From Campylobacteraceae bacterium (GTDB lineage: Bacteria > Campylobacterota > Campylobacteria > Campylobacterales > Sulfurospirillaceae), in NCBI GenBank assembly GCA_027050775.1, contig JALUBH010000020.1, positions 186,001 to 250,000 of the forward strand: a DNA stretch of 64,000 nt, given 5' to 3'. The notes under the pieces were generated by a model. That model made no database searches and was not told the origin of the DNA. It saw nothing but the letters and a program-made list of their open reading frames with translations. Each line of letters opens with the position of its first letter. Position 1 is the stretch's first letter. Positions 5,833 to 40,665 of this stretch are shown here, one piece after another. A program made the translations under genes and the position numbers.

Positions 5833-5903
5833 TAACTGACTTTACGCACTATAATAAGCAAAGCTCGTTATAGTGGCGGGAACTAAAGTGCTAAGGTCAG
5901 TTA
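5833..5903. repeat. 71-bp palindromic element, short relative of the MITE at 36.6 kb
   Basis: The ends are TAACTGAC and GTCAGTTA, and an inner stem CACTATAA/TTATAGTG lies between them. The left end continues as TTTACGCACTATA, differing at one base from the terminal inverted repeat of the 273-bp element at 36635-36907. It sits between the divergent Hpt gene and panB. It codes for nothing and looks like an internally deleted copy. Confidence 0.7.
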
Positions 5904-33072: not shown

Positions 33073-33717
33073 CTACTTTTTCATTCCATAAGATTTGAAT
33101 TTTTCTAAGATTTTATCCATCTCTTTATCATCTAGTATAACAGGCTCTCCTGCCTGTTTTGCCATTATATACTGTTTTGCGAGATTTTCAACCTCTATGG
33201 CTATCCATAAAGCTTTTTTTAGTGTGATTGCGGTAGTCACTACTCCGTGATTTGCGAGTAGACAGGCACTATATCCCTTTAGTGCTTTTATGATATTTTG
33301 TGAGAGTTCACTCGTTCCAAATGTAGCATAAGTGGCACAAGGTATCTTTTTACCCCCCGCAACCCCAACCATATAGTGATGAGAGGGTATATCCATCCTG
33401 CATATCGCCATAGATGTGGCGTAAGAGGAGTGATTATGAAGCACACAATTAATCTCAGGTTTTGCTTTTAAAATATCAAAATGAAAATCCAACTCACTCG
33501 ATGGTGGATACTCACCAACATACTCCCCTTTCGAACTAAACGGGACAAAAGCTATATCCTTTGGCTTCAACAAATCATACGAAATACCACTTGGAGTTAT
33601 CAGTATACCATCTTTAAATCTATGACTTATATTTCCTGATGTTCCTTGATTTATACCCAATTGTTCCATCTTTAGACATGTTTCTATGATCTCTTTTCTT
33701 ATATCCAATTCATCCAT
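33073..33717 (-). CDS. class II aldolase, FucA/Ald2-like (5-deoxyribulose/methylthioribulose-1-phosphate aldolase)
   Basis: 214 residues, colinear with E. coli fuculose-1-phosphate aldolase with a +2 offset: GTSGNIS, catalytic Glu75 (PPSSE), Zn ligands His94/His96 (HNH) and His157 (NHGV), Tyr115 (HHYMVG) and the C-terminal LEKFKSYG with Tyr210. These favour aldol cleavage over the dehydratase MtnB of the same superfamily. With mtnK and mtnA in the operon, the likely substrate is 5-methylthioribulose- or 5-deoxyribulose-1-phosphate, giving DHAP plus methylthioacetaldehyde or acetaldehyde (DHAP shunt). The ribosome-binding site is AGGT. Confidence 0.85.
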   Translation of the reverse strand: MDELDIRKEIIETCLKMEQLGINQGTSGNISHRFKDGILITPSGISYDLLKPKDIAFVPFSSKGEYVGEYPPSSELDFHFDILKAKPEINCVLHNHSSYATSMAICRMDIPSHHYMVGVAGGKKIPCATYATFGTSELSQNIIKALKGYSACLLANHGVVTTAITLKKALWIAIEVENLAKQYIMAKQAGEPVILDDKEMDKILEKFKSYGMKK

Positions 33718-33719
33718 TT

Positions 33720-34475
33720 TTACCTACTTATATTTAGATTAAATACGAATCTGTTCGCTAGATAATATCCTATGCTATATGCTAACTTTGCCCCATCTTC
33801 ATCATGTATCAACATCTTTCTTATCAAAACAGGAGTTTCTTTATCTTTTATAACCAAGTGTTTTTTTATCTCATCTGAGGGCATAGAGGCTGAAATCTCT
33901 TCTTGAGAAAAGACTATTTTTACCTTTAGCCTCTCTTCTAAAAACTTATATAGCTGAGTGATATTTCCATCTTGTAACTCTTTTATATCTAGATTCGTAT
34001 CCGGATGAAAAAAACTTTCAACATACAATTCGGGTTCCAAATAGCCCTTAACCCTCAAAAGTCGTATTATCTCTTTGTTTGCTTTAGTATGAAGCTTATC
34101 ATAAACCTCACTTTTTGGCCTACATGCACAAACACTATGTTCGAAGAGTTTAAAATCTCTATTTTGTTTTTTCATATCCTCATTAAAACTATACCAATTG
34201 TTTAGAGTAGTTCTTATGCGACTGTCATCTATATTTTTGAAAGTCCCTCGATTTTTTTTACGAATGATAAGATTTTTGTTTATAAGACCATACATCGCCT
34301 TTCTGACAGTGTTTCTGCTGACACTTAACTCTTTTGAGATTTCAAGCTCATTTGGCAATTTTTCACCCAAACTATAAGGCTCTTTTAGTAAGAGTTCACC
34401 GATTATCTCTTCGACCTGAAGGTACAAAGGAGTTTTGAGCTCTTTATCTATATAATATTGCGATAAATTCAACAT
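33720..34475 (-). CDS. GntR/HutC family transcriptional regulator
   Basis: 251 residues. An N-terminal winged helix (KLPNELEISKELSVSRNTVR) is followed by a C-terminal UTRA ligand-binding domain (YLEPELYVESFF, LIRKMLIHDEDGAKLAYSIG). UTRA regulators sense sugar phosphates or similar metabolites, here probably an intermediate of methylthioribose/deoxyribose breakdown. A strong AAAGGAG precedes the ATG. It lies inside the operon it probably controls. Confidence 0.9.
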   Translation of the reverse strand: MLNLSQYYIDKELKTPLYLQVEEIIGELLLKEPYSLGEKLPNELEISKELSVSRNTVRKAMYGLINKNLIIRKKNRGTFKNIDDSRIRTTLNNWYSFNEDMKKQNRDFKLFEHSVCACRPKSEVYDKLHTKANKEIIRLLRVKGYLEPELYVESFFHPDTNLDIKELQDGNITQLYKFLEERLKVKIVFSQEEISASMPSDEIKKHLVIKDKETPVLIRKMLIHDEDGAKLAYSIGYYLANRFVFNLNISR

Positions 34476-34502
34476 AAACTCCTTTGTTATTGACCTTGTA
34501 CA

Positions 34503-35558
34503 CTATTTTGAAAAACTATACGGCGGCCGTATTATACCTTTTTCTGTGATAAACCCTGATATCAACGAATTGTCCGTTACATCAAAAGCAGGATTAAAAA
34601 CCTTTATATCTTTTGGTGCTATCTGCTGTCCTTTTATGTATATCAACTCGTCTTTTCCTCTCTCCTCGACCACTATATCCGACCCGCTTTTTGAATTTGT
34701 ATCTATGGTTGAGTATGGACAGGCTATATAAAATGGGACTCCATAAAATTTCGCATTTATAGCAAGTGATGATGTGCCTATTTTATTAGCTGTGTCACCA
34801 TTGTTTGCAACTCTATCAGCTCCAACCACAACCATATCAACTCTGCCTAATTTCATCAGATAAGATGATACACTATCGGCTATCATAGTCGTATCAATGC
34901 CAAATTTATTTAATTCCCAACAAGTTATCCGGGCTCCTTGCAAAAGAGGTCTGGTTTCACTAGAGTAAGCTTTGAAACGCTTTCCTTCACTCCACGCAAC
35001 ATACATCGGAGCCAAAGCAGTTCCTATGCCGCCTGTAGCCAATGCTCCTGCATTACAAAGTGTCAAAACACCACCATCCTTCTTGATCAACCCTGCTCCA
35101 TTTTCTCCTATGAGTCTACAAGTCTCTATATCACTTTTATGTATGGAGATAGCCTCTTTTTTGAGCACAATATAAAGCTCTTTCGCAGTTGCATTTTTTG
35201 GAAAACTTTTTGCGATTTTTGAGAGCCTATTGAGTGCCCAACTCAGATTTACCGCTGTTGGTCTTGAGCTATTTAGATACTCTGCATTTTTATAAACCAA
35301 CTCCAAAAATGACTCAATCTTAAAATCAAGTGAATCTTTGAGGCTTATCACAAGACCATAAGCACCTGCAATTCCTATAGCAGGGGCTCCTCTTACTTTT
35401 AGTTGATAAATTGAGTCATAAACCTGCTCAACACTCTTTTGCTCTTCAATTACTTCATCAGTAGGAAGTTTTGTTTGGTCCAATATAAAAAATCTATCCT
35501 CATCATCAAAATATAGAGCTTTCGGTATGGATTCTAAGAGTTTTTTCCTATCACTCAT
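34503..35558 (-). CDS. mtnA: S-methyl-5-thioribose-1-phosphate isomerase
   Basis: 351 residues. RGAPAIGIAGAYGL (56-69), Cys168 in LTLCNAGALATGG, ETRPLLQGAR, and Asp248 in VVVGADRVANNGDTANKIGT are the catalytic and binding elements of MtnA, and distinguish it from eIF2B subunits. It converts MTR-1-P (or 5-deoxyribose-1-P) to the ribulose form. It starts 2 bases after the binding-protein stop. Confidence 0.96.
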   Translation of the reverse strand: MSDRKKLLESIPKALYFDDEDRFFILDQTKLPTDEVIEEQKSVEQVYDSIYQLKVRGAPAIGIAGAYGLVISLKDSLDFKIESFLELVYKNAEYLNSSRPTAVNLSWALNRLSKIAKSFPKNATAKELYIVLKKEAISIHKSDIETCRLIGENGAGLIKKDGGVLTLCNAGALATGGIGTALAPMYVAWSEGKRFKAYSSETRPLLQGARITCWELNKFGIDTTMIADSVSSYLMKLGRVDMVVVGADRVANNGDTANKIGTSSLAINAKFYGVPFYIACPYSTIDTNSKSGSDIVVEERGKDELIYIKGQQIAPKDIKVFNPAFDVTDNSLISGFITEKGIIRPPYSFSK

Positions 35559-35560
35559 CT

Positions 35561-36619
35561 CTAAAATAATCCTTTCTTATCTACTGGTATCCAAGGATAG
35601 TTCAGCAAATTAACACTATTGAACTTAGGAAATTTTTTTCTTAATTGCTTCATGTTTTTTATCTTCAATCTTCTTAACTCTTTTGCGGTAAAAAGCATAG
35701 GTGGTATCAAAATTTTGTGAGGTATCTTTATGCCTGCAATTTTCAATGCAATTGCTCTAACTGAAACAGCACCTATAGAGGCAGGATTTGTAGCGGCTGT
35801 TGCAGCCCAGGGACTATCTGGCTTTATCATCTCTCTTATATCTTGGGTTGAGATGTCAGCTGTATATACCTTTACTTTATCTTGTTTTTCAGCTTCTCTG
35901 AGGGCTTGAACCACACCCTTTCCCAATTCATCATAAGGAGCAAAAAATGCGTTTATCTCCGGATGTGCAAGCAAAACCGCTTTTACCTGATCAGCATTTT
36001 TAGAGGCTATCGGAGACTCAAGCGTTCCTGTTTTCACTATCTCTTTTATGCCCGGATACTCTTTTTTAATCTTTTGCCAACTTTTGTCTCTCTTATCTAA
36101 GGGTAAGATTCCGGCAATACTTACATAACCGACATTTGCTTTGCCATGAAAGTCTTTTACCATCTGCTTAAGTGCCAACATACCGAGTAATTCATCATCT
36201 TGTGAGATTTGTGGAATTTTTGGATTTTTTAAATCAACATCAAATGCAACTACGGGAATTCCAGCTTTTATAGCATCAGCTGCGGGTTTCATCATAGTTT
36301 CGCTTAAACCGTGGTCTATGATAATTCCATCAACTTTCATATTTATAGCTTCATAGACAAAGTTTGCCTCTGCTTGGTTATCCATACTCTTTCCAAATAC
36401 AATAAGCTTAATGCCTAGCAAATTCGCCTGTATCTGCGCTCCTGCTCTATATGTCTGCATAAATTCACCCTCTGTCATCTGCCTAATCAAGGCAACGCGT
36501 ATCGTCCTTGAGCCGTTAAACGGGGGTGGTGCACCTTTTAAACCTTTTGCGAGAGCACTGTTTGTGCCAAAAAATAAACCAAGCACTACAAAAAGTACCA
36601 TTAAAAACTTTAACTTCAT
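35561..36619 (-). CDS. periplasmic sugar-binding protein of an RbsB-type ABC transporter
   Basis: 352 residues. The signal peptide (1-25, ending NSALA) is followed by a type I periplasmic-binding fold: RVALIRQMTEGEFMQTYRAG, DGIIIDHGLSETMM, VVAFDVDL, NAFFAPYDELGKGV. A strong AAAGGAG precedes the ATG. It is separated from the permease gene by a foldback element. The operon context points to methylthioribose or 5-deoxyribose as ligand. Confidence 0.9.
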   Translation of the reverse strand: MKLKFLMVLFVVLGLFFGTNSALAKGLKGAPPPFNGSRTIRVALIRQMTEGEFMQTYRAGAQIQANLLGIKLIVFGKSMDNQAEANFVYEAINMKVDGIIIDHGLSETMMKPAADAIKAGIPVVAFDVDLKNPKIPQISQDDELLGMLALKQMVKDFHGKANVGYVSIAGILPLDKRDKSWQKIKKEYPGIKEIVKTGTLESPIASKNADQVKAVLLAHPEINAFFAPYDELGKGVVQALREAEKQDKVKVYTADISTQDIREMIKPDSPWAATAATNPASIGAVSVRAIALKIAGIKIPHKILIPPMLFTAKELRRLKIKNMKQLRKKFPKFNSVNLLNYPWIPVDKKGLF

Positions 36620-36634
36620 ATCTTCTCCTTTTTT

Positions 36635-36907
36635 TAACTGACCTTACGCACTATATCACATCATCAGTGAGTTTTAAGGCTGACGAGTACGAGGCGGTTT
36701 TGCTTTGGCATAGCTAAAGCTATGTTAAAGTGAAACCAACGAAGTAATCATATGCCTTAAAATTCACCCGTAGGGCAAATAAGAAAAAGGCATATTGCTT
36801 CGTTGGAAAACTTTCACCATAGCTTAAGCTATGCTAAAATCTTTCCACCTCGCACTACACCTCTTTCTTATTTGCTGATGGTGCGATATAGTGCGTAAGG
36901 TCAGTTA
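36635..36907. mobile_element. 273-bp foldback MITE inside the sugar-uptake operon
   Basis: Perfect 23-bp terminal inverted repeats (36635-36657 and 36885-36907; TAACTGACCTTACGCACTAT at the outer end). Inside, two arms of about 50 bases are also inverted copies (GCATAGCTAAAGCTATG against GCATAGCTTAAGCTATG). It has no coding capacity. TA at each outer edge could be the target duplication of an IS630/Tc1-type transposase. The right end supplies the stop codon of the permease gene. A 71-bp relative lies at 5833-5903. Confidence 0.85.
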
Positions 36908-37888
36908 TATTTCTGATTTTGATAATCCAAATGTAAATATAAGTGCTGCCACTAAAACAACACCTTTTATAAAATCCTGCGTATAATATGGCAAAGACAG
37001 CATAGTCAAGCCATTTAAAAGCATACCGATAAATATAACTCCCACTACAGAGCCAAGTGCATTTGGTTTTTTGACTCCTAAAACCGCATACCCTATCAGT
37101 GCGGCAGCTACAGCATCCAACAACAATCCTCCTCCACTTGTAACATCACCTCTCCCAATCCTAGCTGCCAACAGTACACCGGCTATCGAAGAGATGGTGC
37201 CGGATAACACATAAGCTGCTATTTTATATCTTTCAACACTTACACCTGCTAGTTTTACTGCTTTTTCATTACCCCCTATCGCATATAAAATTCTTCCCCA
37301 CTTTGTATATTGAAGTATAAAATATATTATTATCGCCAAAATCGCAAAAACTATTACCGGTATGGGTATGAGGTTAAAAAGTCTGCCTTGTCCCAAAAAT
37401 AAAAACTGTTGTGCAAACTCTCCTTTTGCTTCACTACCGTTGGCCAACATCATTCCTGTACCTATAGACATACCCGCAGATGGTATCAACTGTAAACCCT
37501 GAATTAAAAACATCATTCCCAAAGTTGCCAAAAGATCTGGAATTTTTGCTTTCACTATCAACAAGCCGTTTACCAATCCGATGGTGACTCCAAGCAAAAC
37601 AGAGAGTAAAATCGCATATATATAGTTTAGATTTAGCACAACCATGACATAAGACGAAATCATCACACAAATCGCTGCGGTTGAACCGATAGAGAGGTCA
37701 AATCCATCTACTATAAGTGTAAATGTAACTCCTAGTGCCAAAATCCCAACTATGGTAACACCAAGTAAAATCGAGAACATATTTGACCAACTCCAAAAAG
37801 ATGGCTCAAGCAAACCAAAACCCAAAAATGAACCTGCCATAACTATCAAAAAACCATATTTTATGGCAAATGCTACAAATTTTTCCAC
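36905..37888 (-). CDS. ABC transporter permease, RbsC family
   Basis: 327 residues from a GTG start with AAGGA upstream. About eight to ten TM helices. The family signature GFDLSIGSTAAICVM is near residue 62 and GGNEKAVKLAGVSVERYK is the coupling loop region. It works with the ATPase and binding protein on either side. Its stop TAA is formed by the end of the MITE, so the natural C-terminus may have been altered by a few residues. Confidence 0.92.
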   Translation of the reverse strand: MEKFVAFAIKYGFLIVMAGSFLGFGLLEPSFWSWSNMFSILLGVTIVGILALGVTFTLIVDGFDLSIGSTAAICVMISSYVMVVLNLNYIYAILLSVLLGVTIGLVNGLLIVKAKIPDLLATLGMMFLIQGLQLIPSAGMSIGTGMMLANGSEAKGEFAQQFLFLGQGRLFNLIPIPVIVFAILAIIIYFILQYTKWGRILYAIGGNEKAVKLAGVSVERYKIAAYVLSGTISSIAGVLLAARIGRGDVTSGGGLLLDAVAAALIGYAVLGVKKPNALGSVVGVIFIGMLLNGLTMLSLPYYTQDFIKGVVLVAALIFTFGLSKSEI

Positions 37889-37892
37889 CCTA

Positions 37893-39398
37893 TCATCCTT
37901 CTTGTGTAATCAAACTCAAAAGCTTGTCTCTGTCTATTTGAGAAGTTCTTTCATCTGAAAGTATTCTTCCTTTGTTCATAACCATAATTCTATCCGTTAC
38001 ATCTATCAATTCGTCTATATCGCTGCTTATCATGAGCACTGAGCTCTCTTTTGTATTTTCCATAAGATATTGGCTCATATCTCTTCTTGATTTTATATCA
38101 ACACCCTGAAAGGGCTCATCTAGTATCACTATATTATGTTTCATCAAAAGCCATCTTGCAACGACCACTTTTTGCTGATTTCCACCTGAAAGTGACTCGA
38201 TCAGAGCATTATACCCTTCACATTTTATGCCCATTTCATGTATCATTTTTTTTGATGCTTTTATCTCGTTTTTTTCTAAAAGCACTCCATATTTTGAGAA
38301 AAAATTCAAAAATGGAAGTGTGATATTATTTTTTATAGACTCTTCGGGGATTATCGCATTTACCGTTCTGTTTTCAGGAACCATATGAATTCCTTGTTTT
38401 ATAGCCTGATGTATATTTTTAAAATTTACACTTTTACCATTTAACTTTATCTCCCCACTTATAGAATTCCGGATACCAAAAAGAGTCTCCGCAAGCTCTG
38501 TTTTACCGGCACCTATAAGTCCTATGAGACCTATTATCTCACCCGAATAAATCTTCATATTGATTGGCTCACTGCTTCCGTCTATCACTAAGTTTTTCAA
38601 CTCAAGCACCAGTTTTTTTGTATTTTTTTTATCATAACTTCGCTCAAGCACACTCTGCAAATTTCCAACCATCTTTTTGACTATCTGAGAAATCTCCAAA
38701 GGCTGATACAATAGACCTCCAAATTTCCCATCTCTTATAACTCCAACTCTATTTGAAATTTTTTTTATTTCTGCTAAATAATGAGATATAAAGAGGATAG
38801 AAACTCCCTCATCTCTAAGTCTATACAGAGTCTCAAAAAGCATCGAGGCTTCTCTATCGGATATCGAGGAGGTAGGCTCATCCAAAATCAAAAGTTTTGG
38901 TTTTCTAGCAAGTGCTCTTGCTATGATAATCATCTGCTTTTGACTTTGTGTAATATCTTGGATATTCTGTTCCATATCAAGATATTCTAAATCCATCTTT
39001 CTAGCAATCTCTTTAGCCCTTTGTATTATCTTTTTTTTCTCATATATAAAAGGCGCTTCCGGCGAAACTATCATCTCTAATGCCAAATTTTCAGCTACAC
39101 TCATATTTTGGACGATTCCTTGCTCAATACTTTGATGTACGACCTGGATACCTGCCTCATAAGCATCTCTTGGTGATTGAAATTTTGTCAGCTTGCCGTC
39201 TATGTATATCTCTCCTTCGTAATCTGCATAGTACCCGCACAATATTTTTATGAATGTTGACTTTCCTGCACCGTTTGCACCAACTATAGAAAAAATTTCA
39301 CCTTTATGAAAATCAAAATTTACCTTACTCAAAGCTTTTGTTACACCAAAGCTTTTACTTATATTTATAGCTTTGATTATAGGTTGCTTATCTTTCAT
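37893..39398 (-). CDS. sugar ABC transporter ATPase, RbsA family (two nucleotide-binding domains)
   Basis: 501 residues. Domain 1: Walker A GANGAGKST, signature-like DITQSQKQM, Walker B LLILDEPTSS. Domain 2: degenerate P-loop GLIGAGKTEL, signature LSGGNQQK, Walker B VILDEPFQGVD. This is the standard layout of RbsA-type ATPases, where one site is degenerate. It overlaps mtnK by 4 bases. Confidence 0.94.
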   Translation of the reverse strand: MKDKQPIIKAINISKSFGVTKALSKVNFDFHKGEIFSIVGANGAGKSTFIKILCGYYADYEGEIYIDGKLTKFQSPRDAYEAGIQVVHQSIEQGIVQNMSVAENLALEMIVSPEAPFIYEKKKIIQRAKEIARKMDLEYLDMEQNIQDITQSQKQMIIIARALARKPKLLILDEPTSSISDREASMLFETLYRLRDEGVSILFISHYLAEIKKISNRVGVIRDGKFGGLLYQPLEISQIVKKMVGNLQSVLERSYDKKNTKKLVLELKNLVIDGSSEPINMKIYSGEIIGLIGLIGAGKTELAETLFGIRNSISGEIKLNGKSVNFKNIHQAIKQGIHMVPENRTVNAIIPEESIKNNITLPFLNFFSKYGVLLEKNEIKASKKMIHEMGIKCEGYNALIESLSGGNQQKVVVARWLLMKHNIVILDEPFQGVDIKSRRDMSQYLMENTKESSVLMISSDIDELIDVTDRIMVMNKGRILSDERTSQIDRDKLLSLITQEG

Positions 39399-40612
39399 AT
39401 CTTTTGCATCTCTTCTATCACTTCATCTATACTGTTGTAATTAAAAGTTATAAATTTTATGGCACTTTCAAGCACTTTTATCTCCACCTCAGCTCTTCTT
39501 TCTAAATCCTCTATCCCTGCGACATCGGCTACTTTTGCCAGCCCTACGGTTCGTCTGAACATTTCACAAGCCATAAAACCAACACTATCATCAAAAACAT
39601 CCTTCACAAAGGAGTCTGCGTAGTGCCCAAAATGCTCTAAACCATCGGGATAACTCCACTGTAGAGATTTTCTTTTTTTCTCATTTTCAACCATATTTGT
39701 CTTAAATTTTGAAGCAAACATCTCCCATGTATCTTTTATCATGGCTAGAACATAATCTTTATAAAAATTTTCATCTTCTTTAAGGGAGAAATAAGACATA
39801 ACAAGATTTGCTAGGTAAATTCCTACATCAAAACCGATAGGACCATAAAATGCAAATTCCGGATCTATCACATAGGTTTCGTCCTTGTTTAGCATAATAC
39901 TTCCTGTATGCAAATCCCCATGCAAAAGTGCTTGAGCATCAGTCATAAACTTATATCTCATCTTTGCAACTGCTGTTTTTACATCTCTGTTTTCTCTGAA
40001 TTTTTTTACAACGGATATGTCAAGTTTAGGATTGCACTCATTTGTCTCATTATCCTCATAGGGGTGCGTAAATATAAAGTCTTCGGTTATCTTGCAAAGT
40101 TCTTTGTTTATAAATTTCTTGACTCCCTCTTTCTTTTGGGCACTTGATAAATAAAAGTCAGTCGTATAAAAAAGTGTGTCGGCCAAGAATGTAGATATAT
40201 GCTCACTCAAAAATGGAAAAACTTCTCTGTTTATCATCTCGCCCCTCAATATCTTGTGAGAATCAAGGTTTTGCATGACAACAAGCGACATATCAACACT
40301 ATCATAGTAAATCTTTGGTACATATTGCGGACATATCTCTTTTTCTATCTTTAGCGCTTCTATCTCAAAAACCATCCTAATTCGGCTCAGCGGATACTCC
40401 TCGCCTACACATCTTAAAAAAGGTACAGCCTGTTTCAAAATCAAACTTTTTTTATCGCACTTTATGTTATAAACAAAATTTAAATTCCCATCACCAATTT
40501 CGCTTACATCAAGCTTATCGATAGATTCATCATCACTTAGTAGAAGAGCTCTGATGTCCGGAGTCTCATCTATATACTCTTTGATTAAATCATTATTTAG
40601 CACTTTATACAT
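39395..40612 (-). CDS. mtnK: 5-methylthioribose kinase
   Basis: 405 residues from ATG 40612, chosen over the ATG at 40642 because AAAGGTGA lies just before it. The ATP-binding DGNLNFVYNI, the catalytic LLHGDLHTGSIML and the metal-binding VIDPEFAFYGPIGFDVG are the hallmark MtnK motifs of the choline-kinase-like fold. It phosphorylates MTR (and in the DHAP shunt 5-deoxyribose) at C1. First gene of the operon mtnK - ATPase - permease - binding protein - mtnA - gntR - aldolase. Confidence 0.95.
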   Translation of the reverse strand: MYKVLNNDLIKEYIDETPDIRALLLSDDESIDKLDVSEIGDGNLNFVYNIKCDKKSLILKQAVPFLRCVGEEYPLSRIRMVFEIEALKIEKEICPQYVPKIYYDSVDMSLVVMQNLDSHKILRGEMINREVFPFLSEHISTFLADTLFYTTDFYLSSAQKKEGVKKFINKELCKITEDFIFTHPYEDNETNECNPKLDISVVKKFRENRDVKTAVAKMRYKFMTDAQALLHGDLHTGSIMLNKDETYVIDPEFAFYGPIGFDVGIYLANLVMSYFSLKEDENFYKDYVLAMIKDTWEMFASKFKTNMVENEKKRKSLQWSYPDGLEHFGHYADSFVKDVFDDSVGFMACEMFRRTVGLAKVADVAGIEDLERRAEVEIKVLESAIKFITFNYNSIDEVIEEMQKI

Positions 40613-40627
40613 GATATCACCTTTAAA

Positions 40628-40665
40628 GTTATATAGGTACATATTGAGTTATGTTCCTATATAAC
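40628..40665. promoter_or_regulatory. inverted repeat before mtnK, candidate GntR operator
   Basis: The arms GTTATATAGGTACA (40628-40641) and TGTTCCTATATAAC (40652-40665) pair at 13 of 14 positions around a 10-base spacer. It lies between a -10-like box and the mtnK ribosome-binding site, where a repressor or an mRNA hairpin would control the operon. Confidence 0.55.

Follow-up and report, generated by a model that had tools for sequence, protein, structure and literature searches.

Which sugar does a bacterium take up when an importer of the ribose type is encoded together with a methylthioribose kinase and a methylthioribose-1-phosphate isomerase, and what becomes of that sugar inside the cell? 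This question was raised by a stretch of 64,000 nucleotides (hereafter the window) from a Campylobacteraceae bacterium (GenBank assembly GCA_027050775.1, contig JALUBH010000020.1, positions 186,001 to 250,000). Seven consecutive open reading frames on its minus strand, at 33073–40612, encode in this order MtnK, an RbsA-like and an RbsC-like importer subunit, a periplasmic solute-binding protein (SBP), MtnA, a GntR/UTRA regulator and a FucA-like aldolase. As judged from sequence comparison, the locus is probably an operon that takes up and catabolises 5-methylthioribose (MTR), and likely 5-deoxyribose as well, and in which the importer is joined to the enzymes of the dihydroxyacetone phosphate (DHAP) shunt. 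The initial annotation had already proposed import coupled to a DHAP shunt, and this proposal was supported by the gene content, the missing salvage enzymes, the presence of a nucleosidase and, above all, the kinship of the SBP to an MTR-binding SBP. Coordinates given without further label are window positions, and L-numbers are labels of the compared loci or contigs. The features are:

40629–40664, no strand: palindrome, candidate operator
39395–40612, minus strand: mtnK, S-methyl-5-thioribose kinase
37893–39398, minus strand: RbsA-like double-ATPase importer subunit
36905–37888, minus strand: RbsC-like importer permease, GTG start
36638–36904, no strand: MITE-like hairpin of 267 bp
35561–36619, minus strand: periplasmic SBP, 5-methylthioribose type
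34503–35558, minus strand: mtnA, methylthioribose-1-phosphate isomerase
33720–34475, minus strand: GntR-family regulator (HutC/UTRA type)
33073–33717, minus strand: FucA-like class II aldolase

The seven-gene operon, as first described, was borne out by the open reading frames, by family profiles and by the gene order, which is unchanged in the related contigs L017, L018 and L019, while L016 ends just past mtnK. Because this order recurs in three related contigs, the grouping of the genes is not a matter of chance. Additionally, the identities proposed for the kinase and the isomerase hold, since both proteins score well above curated cut-offs: MtnK reached 476 bits against TIGR01767 (cut-off 275), its closest solved relatives being the MTR kinases 2PYW (Arabidopsis) and 2OLC (Bacillus), and MtnA reached 406 bits against TIGR00512 (cut-off 279), with 1T9K and 2YRF as solved relatives. 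It was previously demonstrated that DrdK, a studied kinase of the MtnK type, also takes 5-deoxyribose and is inactive on ribose (PMC6079011).

The best-supported part of this reading is the importer. Its ATPase, permease and SBP were all assigned by family profiles to the CUT2/Rbs type (the permease as BPD_transp_2, RbsC/AraH-like), in agreement with the RbsABC-type importer first annotated, and all three remained under the RbsABC equivalog cut-offs, the CUT2-family ATPase passing no equivalog cut-off. The SBP, which has a signal peptide-like N terminus, scored only 53 bits against the RbsB profile (cut-off 337). Its best match in the PDB was 4RY8 (E 1e-73), an entry of Thermotoga lettingae (protein TLET_1677) whose title begins by naming a 5-methylthioribose transporter solute binding protein, with ribose-binding proteins at 1e-20 to 1e-11; the identity was 40% to 4RY8 and 28% to the ribose SBP 2IOY. 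The pocket was compared at the eleven ribose-contact positions, namely N13, F15, F16, N64, D89, R90, R141, F164, N190, D215 and Q235 in the numbering of the E. coli ribose-binding protein. The residues found there were G, F, M, D, D, V, R, P, Y, D and T in the window SBP, G, F, F, D, D, L, R, S, W, D and T in 4RY8, and N, F, F, N, D, R, R, F, N, D and Q in the ribose binder 2IOY. The window pocket thus retains two Asp and one Arg, most of the other ribose-fitting polar residues being swapped as in 4RY8, and it lacks the contact Asn, Arg, Asn and Gln that ribose SBPs keep. An RbsABC ribose importer was rejected on these pocket residues together with the scores below the family cut-offs. Given its resemblance to an MTR binder, the SBP points to MTR as the more likely imported sugar.

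Relatives of this SBP with 43–45% identity adjoin mtnK-mtnA in Sinorhizobium medicae, Shinella and Mariluticola. The enterobacterial MtrB-type SBP (5ULB, Enterobacter) is 31–32% identical and stands in Enterobacter with a full methionine-salvage set, in line with the MTR transporter predicted for such bacteria (PMC3228920). Another relative, encoded on plasmid pRL9 of Rhizobium johnstonii (L087, 8938–9984, plus strand; 44% identity, similar pocket), lies with its ABC genes among genes for LLM flavin monooxygenase and an SfnB-family sulfur acquisition oxidoreductase, a setting hinting at the use of a related organosulfur sugar as a sulfur source.

The fate of the sugar depends on the enzymes found elsewhere in the host genome (48 contigs, 2.19 Mb), which was examined one protein family at a time. 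An MTA/SAH nucleosidase (acting on methylthioadenosine and S-adenosylhomocysteine) was detected with 282 bits (cut-off 169). Such a nucleosidase converts methylthioadenosine to MTR and 5'-deoxyadenosine to 5-deoxyribose; therefore, the host makes both sugars itself. Family searches of the genome gave no acireductone dioxygenase (MtnD), no RuBisCO-like protein, hence no MtnW, and no nitrogenase-like Oxidored_nitro protein (PF00148). MtnB was not found among the three Aldolase_II proteins of the host, and mtnC and mtnX were not searched individually. Thus, the absence of mtnB, mtnD and mtnW, initially noted at the locus, extends to the whole genome, and the genome-wide search for MtnB, MtnD and the nucleosidase that the initial annotation recommended returned only the last. 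With neither MtnB nor MtnD, the known methionine-salvage route stops at 5-methylthioribulose-1-phosphate. Three candidate routes were rejected on these grounds: classical aerobic methionine salvage (no MtnB or MtnD), the MTA-isoprenoid shunt (no RuBisCO-like protein) and sulfur recovery through a methylthio-alkane reductase of the Rhodospirillum rubrum type (no nitrogenase-like protein).

The three Aldolase_II proteins are the operon aldolase, a Campylobacterota protein of 150 aa that lacks the HxH motif, and a 381-aa aldolase half that is 53% identical to the aldolase part of fused aldolase-dehydrogenases. The gene for the last is followed by an apparent FGGY-type kinase gene (G000:C18 83225–85276, L003), and the pair apparently belongs to another sugar-phosphate pathway.

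Considering these results, the alternative that survives best is that MTR is imported mainly as a sulfur source, methylthioacetaldehyde being reduced to methylthioethanol and its methanethiol being recovered for methionine. The kinship of the SBP to an MTR binder rather than to a plain deoxyribose binder and the sulfur-acquisition setting of the Rhizobium relative are consistent with this possibility, as is the DHAP shunt of R. rubrum, which serves sulfur salvage (PMC10986504). It is nevertheless unlikely, given that the host has no protein of the methylthio-alkane reductase family, other methylthioethanol-cleaving enzymes not having been searched for. Because no known sulfur-recovering enzyme was found, the sugar more probably supplies carbon or is disposed of than serves as a source of sulfur.

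Far less probable is an operon for the uptake of ribose or another pentose, with the mtnK and mtnA homologues recruited to a different sugar. The importer subunits are generically Rbs/AraH-like, and the halophilic ribulose-1-phosphate aldolase family appears among the matches of the aldolase (175 bits, cut-off 300), as such a function would suggest. However, the loss of the ribose contacts and the low RbsB score of the SBP, the margins by which MtnK and MtnA exceed their own cut-offs and the inactivity of the studied DrdK on ribose all argue against it.

The aldolase (PF00596) is predicted to split the ribulose-1-phosphate into DHAP and an aldehyde, its substrate being suggested by the neighbouring genes. 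Alignment to E. coli FucA placed its residues E75, H94, H96, H157 and Y115 at E73, H92, H94, H155 and Y113 of that enzyme, confirming the Glu75 and the three metal-ligand His that had been read from the sequence. It shares 51% of its residues with a Caballeronia aldolase, 46% with E. coli FucA and 43% with an Ald2-like protein of E. coli. A fucose-type pathway, with L-fuculose-1-phosphate or a similar 6-deoxyhexulose phosphate as the aldolase substrate and with mtnK and mtnA only incidentally nearby, would account for FucA being its best match, but is the least credible alternative in view of the fixed linkage to mtnK/mtnA in four contigs and in Caballeronia, the lack of a fucose kinase or isomerase in the operon, and the FucA-like nature of Ald2, a DHAP-shunt enzyme, in extraintestinal pathogenic E. 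coli (ExPEC) (PMC3228920).

The regulator carries GntR and UTRA domains (PF00392, PF07702), as the initial annotation had stated, and is the probable local repressor. A palindrome, TTATATAGGWACATA-n6-TATGTWCCTATATAA, lies 17–52 bp upstream of the mtnK start and is a good candidate operator for this protein. A search allowing up to three mismatches gave no other match to the pattern in the window (0 expected in shuffles). Upstream of mtnK the palindrome is conserved in two of the related contigs (L016, L019) and degenerate in two others (L017, L018). An alternative longer mtnK frame starting at 40642 would overlap the palindrome; the start at 40612 is reasonable. No riboswitch was found upstream (the SAM type was sought), the Rfam search of the window giving only the tmRNA and one tRNA.

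In the proposed mechanism, the SBP, permease and ATPase would import MTR or 5-deoxyribose, MtnK would phosphorylate the sugar at C1, MtnA would isomerise the product to the ribulose-1-phosphate, and the aldolase would release DHAP together with an aldehyde, which would be 2-(methylthio)acetaldehyde when the sugar is MTR and acetaldehyde when it is 5-deoxyribose. The operon would probably be repressed by the GntR/UTRA protein, bound at the palindrome, until this protein is freed by the sugar or its phosphate. The same enzymes would also clear the MTR and 5-deoxyribose that the host forms through its own nucleosidase, and the importer may serve either the scavenging of waste from other cells or the recovery of the host's own leaked sugar.

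Several observations weigh against an MTR/5-deoxyribose operon. That MTR is bound in the crystal of 4RY8 is a presumption. Structure prediction with AlphaFold, for the SBP by itself and together with three close relatives, reached a pLDDT (predicted local distance difference test) of 41, too poor to serve as structural evidence. The aldolase scored 241 bits against PRK08087 (cut-off 264), passing no equivalog cut-off, and its match to E. coli FucA (207 bits) is stronger than that to the Bacillus thuringiensis aldolase DrdA, 6BTD (137 bits). Finally, in a Caballeronia operon (L089, 7254–14802) with the order GntR, mtnK, mtnA, class II aldolase and ABC importer, followed by dihydroxyacetone kinase genes, the SBP keeps all the ribose-type pocket residues beside the same enzyme set. 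Since Caballeronia joins these enzymes to an SBP with a ribose-type pocket, importer and enzymes are better regarded as exchangeable modules. As for the aldolase, ExPEC Ald2, an enzyme with a demonstrated role in the DHAP shunt, is itself FucA-like by sequence comparison; therefore, closeness to FucA is no argument against a role in this pathway.

The kind of system described here is already known. Beaudoin et al. (2018) reported kinase-isomerase-aldolase clusters in six phyla, four of the DrdKIA-type clusters shown including sugar transporters, and suggested the salvage of exogenous 5-deoxyribose (PMC6079011). In vitro, B. thuringiensis DrdKIA processed 5-deoxyribose and converted MTR too (PMC6079011). 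The DrdK-DrdI-DrdA clusters of B. thuringiensis and its relatives resemble the window operon in grouping a kinase, an isomerase and a FucA-like class II aldolase, in their occasional sugar transporters and in the lack of methionine-salvage genes in several hosts (PMC6079011); they differ in that the window aldolase is nearer to E. coli FucA than to DrdA, and in that the window cluster has an importer of the MTR ABC type and a GntR regulator in a Campylobacterota host. ExPEC, which grows on 5-deoxyribose, has a similar DHAP shunt operon, in which mtnK, mtnA and the FucA-like ald2 accompany a transporter under a local repressor (PMC10986504, PMC12632272). However, the ExPEC operon has a single putative permease and the DeoR-family repressor MtnR, whereas the window has an ABC importer and a GntR/UTRA protein, and the two aldolases are only 43% identical. 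MTR transporters, mtrABC, have also been predicted in Bacillus cereus and enterobacteria (PMC3228920). The window importer shares with these and with TLET_1677/4RY8 a CUT2-type make-up and a link to mtnK, and its SBP has the identity and similar pocket positions already described for 4RY8; the enterobacterial MtrB type, unlike it, serves a full methionine salvage that the host lacks. With the RbsABC ribose importer it shares the fold family and the subunit composition, but neither the ribose contacts nor scores above the equivalog cut-offs. The dedicated importer, which the initial annotation had singled out as the outstanding feature, therefore does not stand out, given the published DrdKIA clusters with sugar transporters (PMC6079011), the predicted MTR ABC transporters (PMC3228920) and the crystal structure 4RY8. 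The novelty lies in the host and in the detail: this is a new, well-conserved example of the kind, whose importer is better defined and which has a regulator of its own.

One structural detail had been overlooked in the initial description, which was otherwise right about the genes. The gap between the permease and SBP genes measures 285 bp and is filled by a hairpin resembling a miniature inverted-repeat transposable element (MITE). This 267-bp element has perfect 20-bp terminal inverted repeats (TIRs; CTGACCTTACGCACTATATC) at 36638–36657 and 36885–36904 and forms a single long hairpin (RNA fold z = -15.8). Partial relatives are scattered in the host genome, and a TIR-like match occurs at 5836–5855 of the window. 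In L017, a full-length copy, 92.5% identical, lies at 1117–1383, upstream of mtnK, and the permease-SBP gap is short there. The element was no part of the ancestral operon, and this pattern is what a non-autonomous mobile element of the MITE kind would leave. At the other end, a downstream alr gene was left out of the operon because it follows in L019 but not in L018.

Regarding its distribution, the SBP was found in seven of ten genomes of the host's genus, the host included, with 89–93% identity to that of the host, and in one genome of another genus of the same family (g3; 82%); none was detected among the g2 genomes of the family that were searched. Within one family of Campylobacterota, the operon is apparently a trait of genus level. 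The named relatives of the host are Campylobacterales metagenome bins, whose names suggest a marine, vent-like source.

MtnK itself exceeded its cut-off in 26 of 397 genomes of the class, and acireductone dioxygenase was found in none of these 26, host included. When 24 other mtnK regions were compared with the window operon, none had an importer or aldolase of the window type near mtnK. At or near mtnKA, a short class II aldolase-like protein of about 200 aa was present in 12 of the 24 other Campylobacterota loci, an aldolase-dehydrogenase fusion in nine, and neither aldolase type in three. As far as these genomes indicate, it is common in the class for mtnKA to occur without methionine salvage, the aldolases are exchangeable and the version with an importer is rare. 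The short protein (L049 7323–7979, minus; L053 7330–7938, minus; L067 11269–11877, plus; nine more) reached no more than 30–40 bits against MtnB (cut-off 137), and acireductone dioxygenase is missing from the genomes that encode it; this protein may therefore represent a third aldolase for 5-modified ribulose-1-phosphates. The fusions of a class II aldolase with a short-chain dehydrogenase (L056 5947–7908, minus; L065 11294–13255, plus; L064 11306–13267, plus; six more), found at or beside mtnKA in some alphaproteobacteria as well (L086 and L090), could link the cleavage step to an oxidation or reduction of the resulting aldehyde.

A divergent MtnK-like kinase (L074 8772–9914, minus; L073 8989–10125, plus) was also observed in g2 genomes of the host's family and in one other family. 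It falls mostly under the TIGR01767 cut-off, that of L073 being above it, and adjoins glycosyltransferase-like genes and, in L074, rhodanese-like genes too.

Campylobacterota live mostly on inorganic energy sources, amino acids and organic acids. Against this background, a wider interpretation may be offered tentatively, at somewhat less than an even chance: one genus of this phylum, with relatives from marine metagenomes, would have joined a dedicated high-affinity importer for MTR and 5-deoxyribose to a DHAP-shunt operon and would live partly on the S-adenosylmethionine (SAM) waste of its community. More broadly, mtnKA of Campylobacterota would be a fixed core to which one of at least three unrelated class II aldolases is added (FucA-like, fused to a short-chain dehydrogenase, and the short protein of about 200 aa), all outside methionine salvage. 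If the operon does import MTR or 5-deoxyribose, these SAM by-products would pass between cells in the habitats of Campylobacterota and merit a dedicated importer, and the SBP offers a simple handle on whether MTR, 5-deoxyribose or both are the molecule traded.

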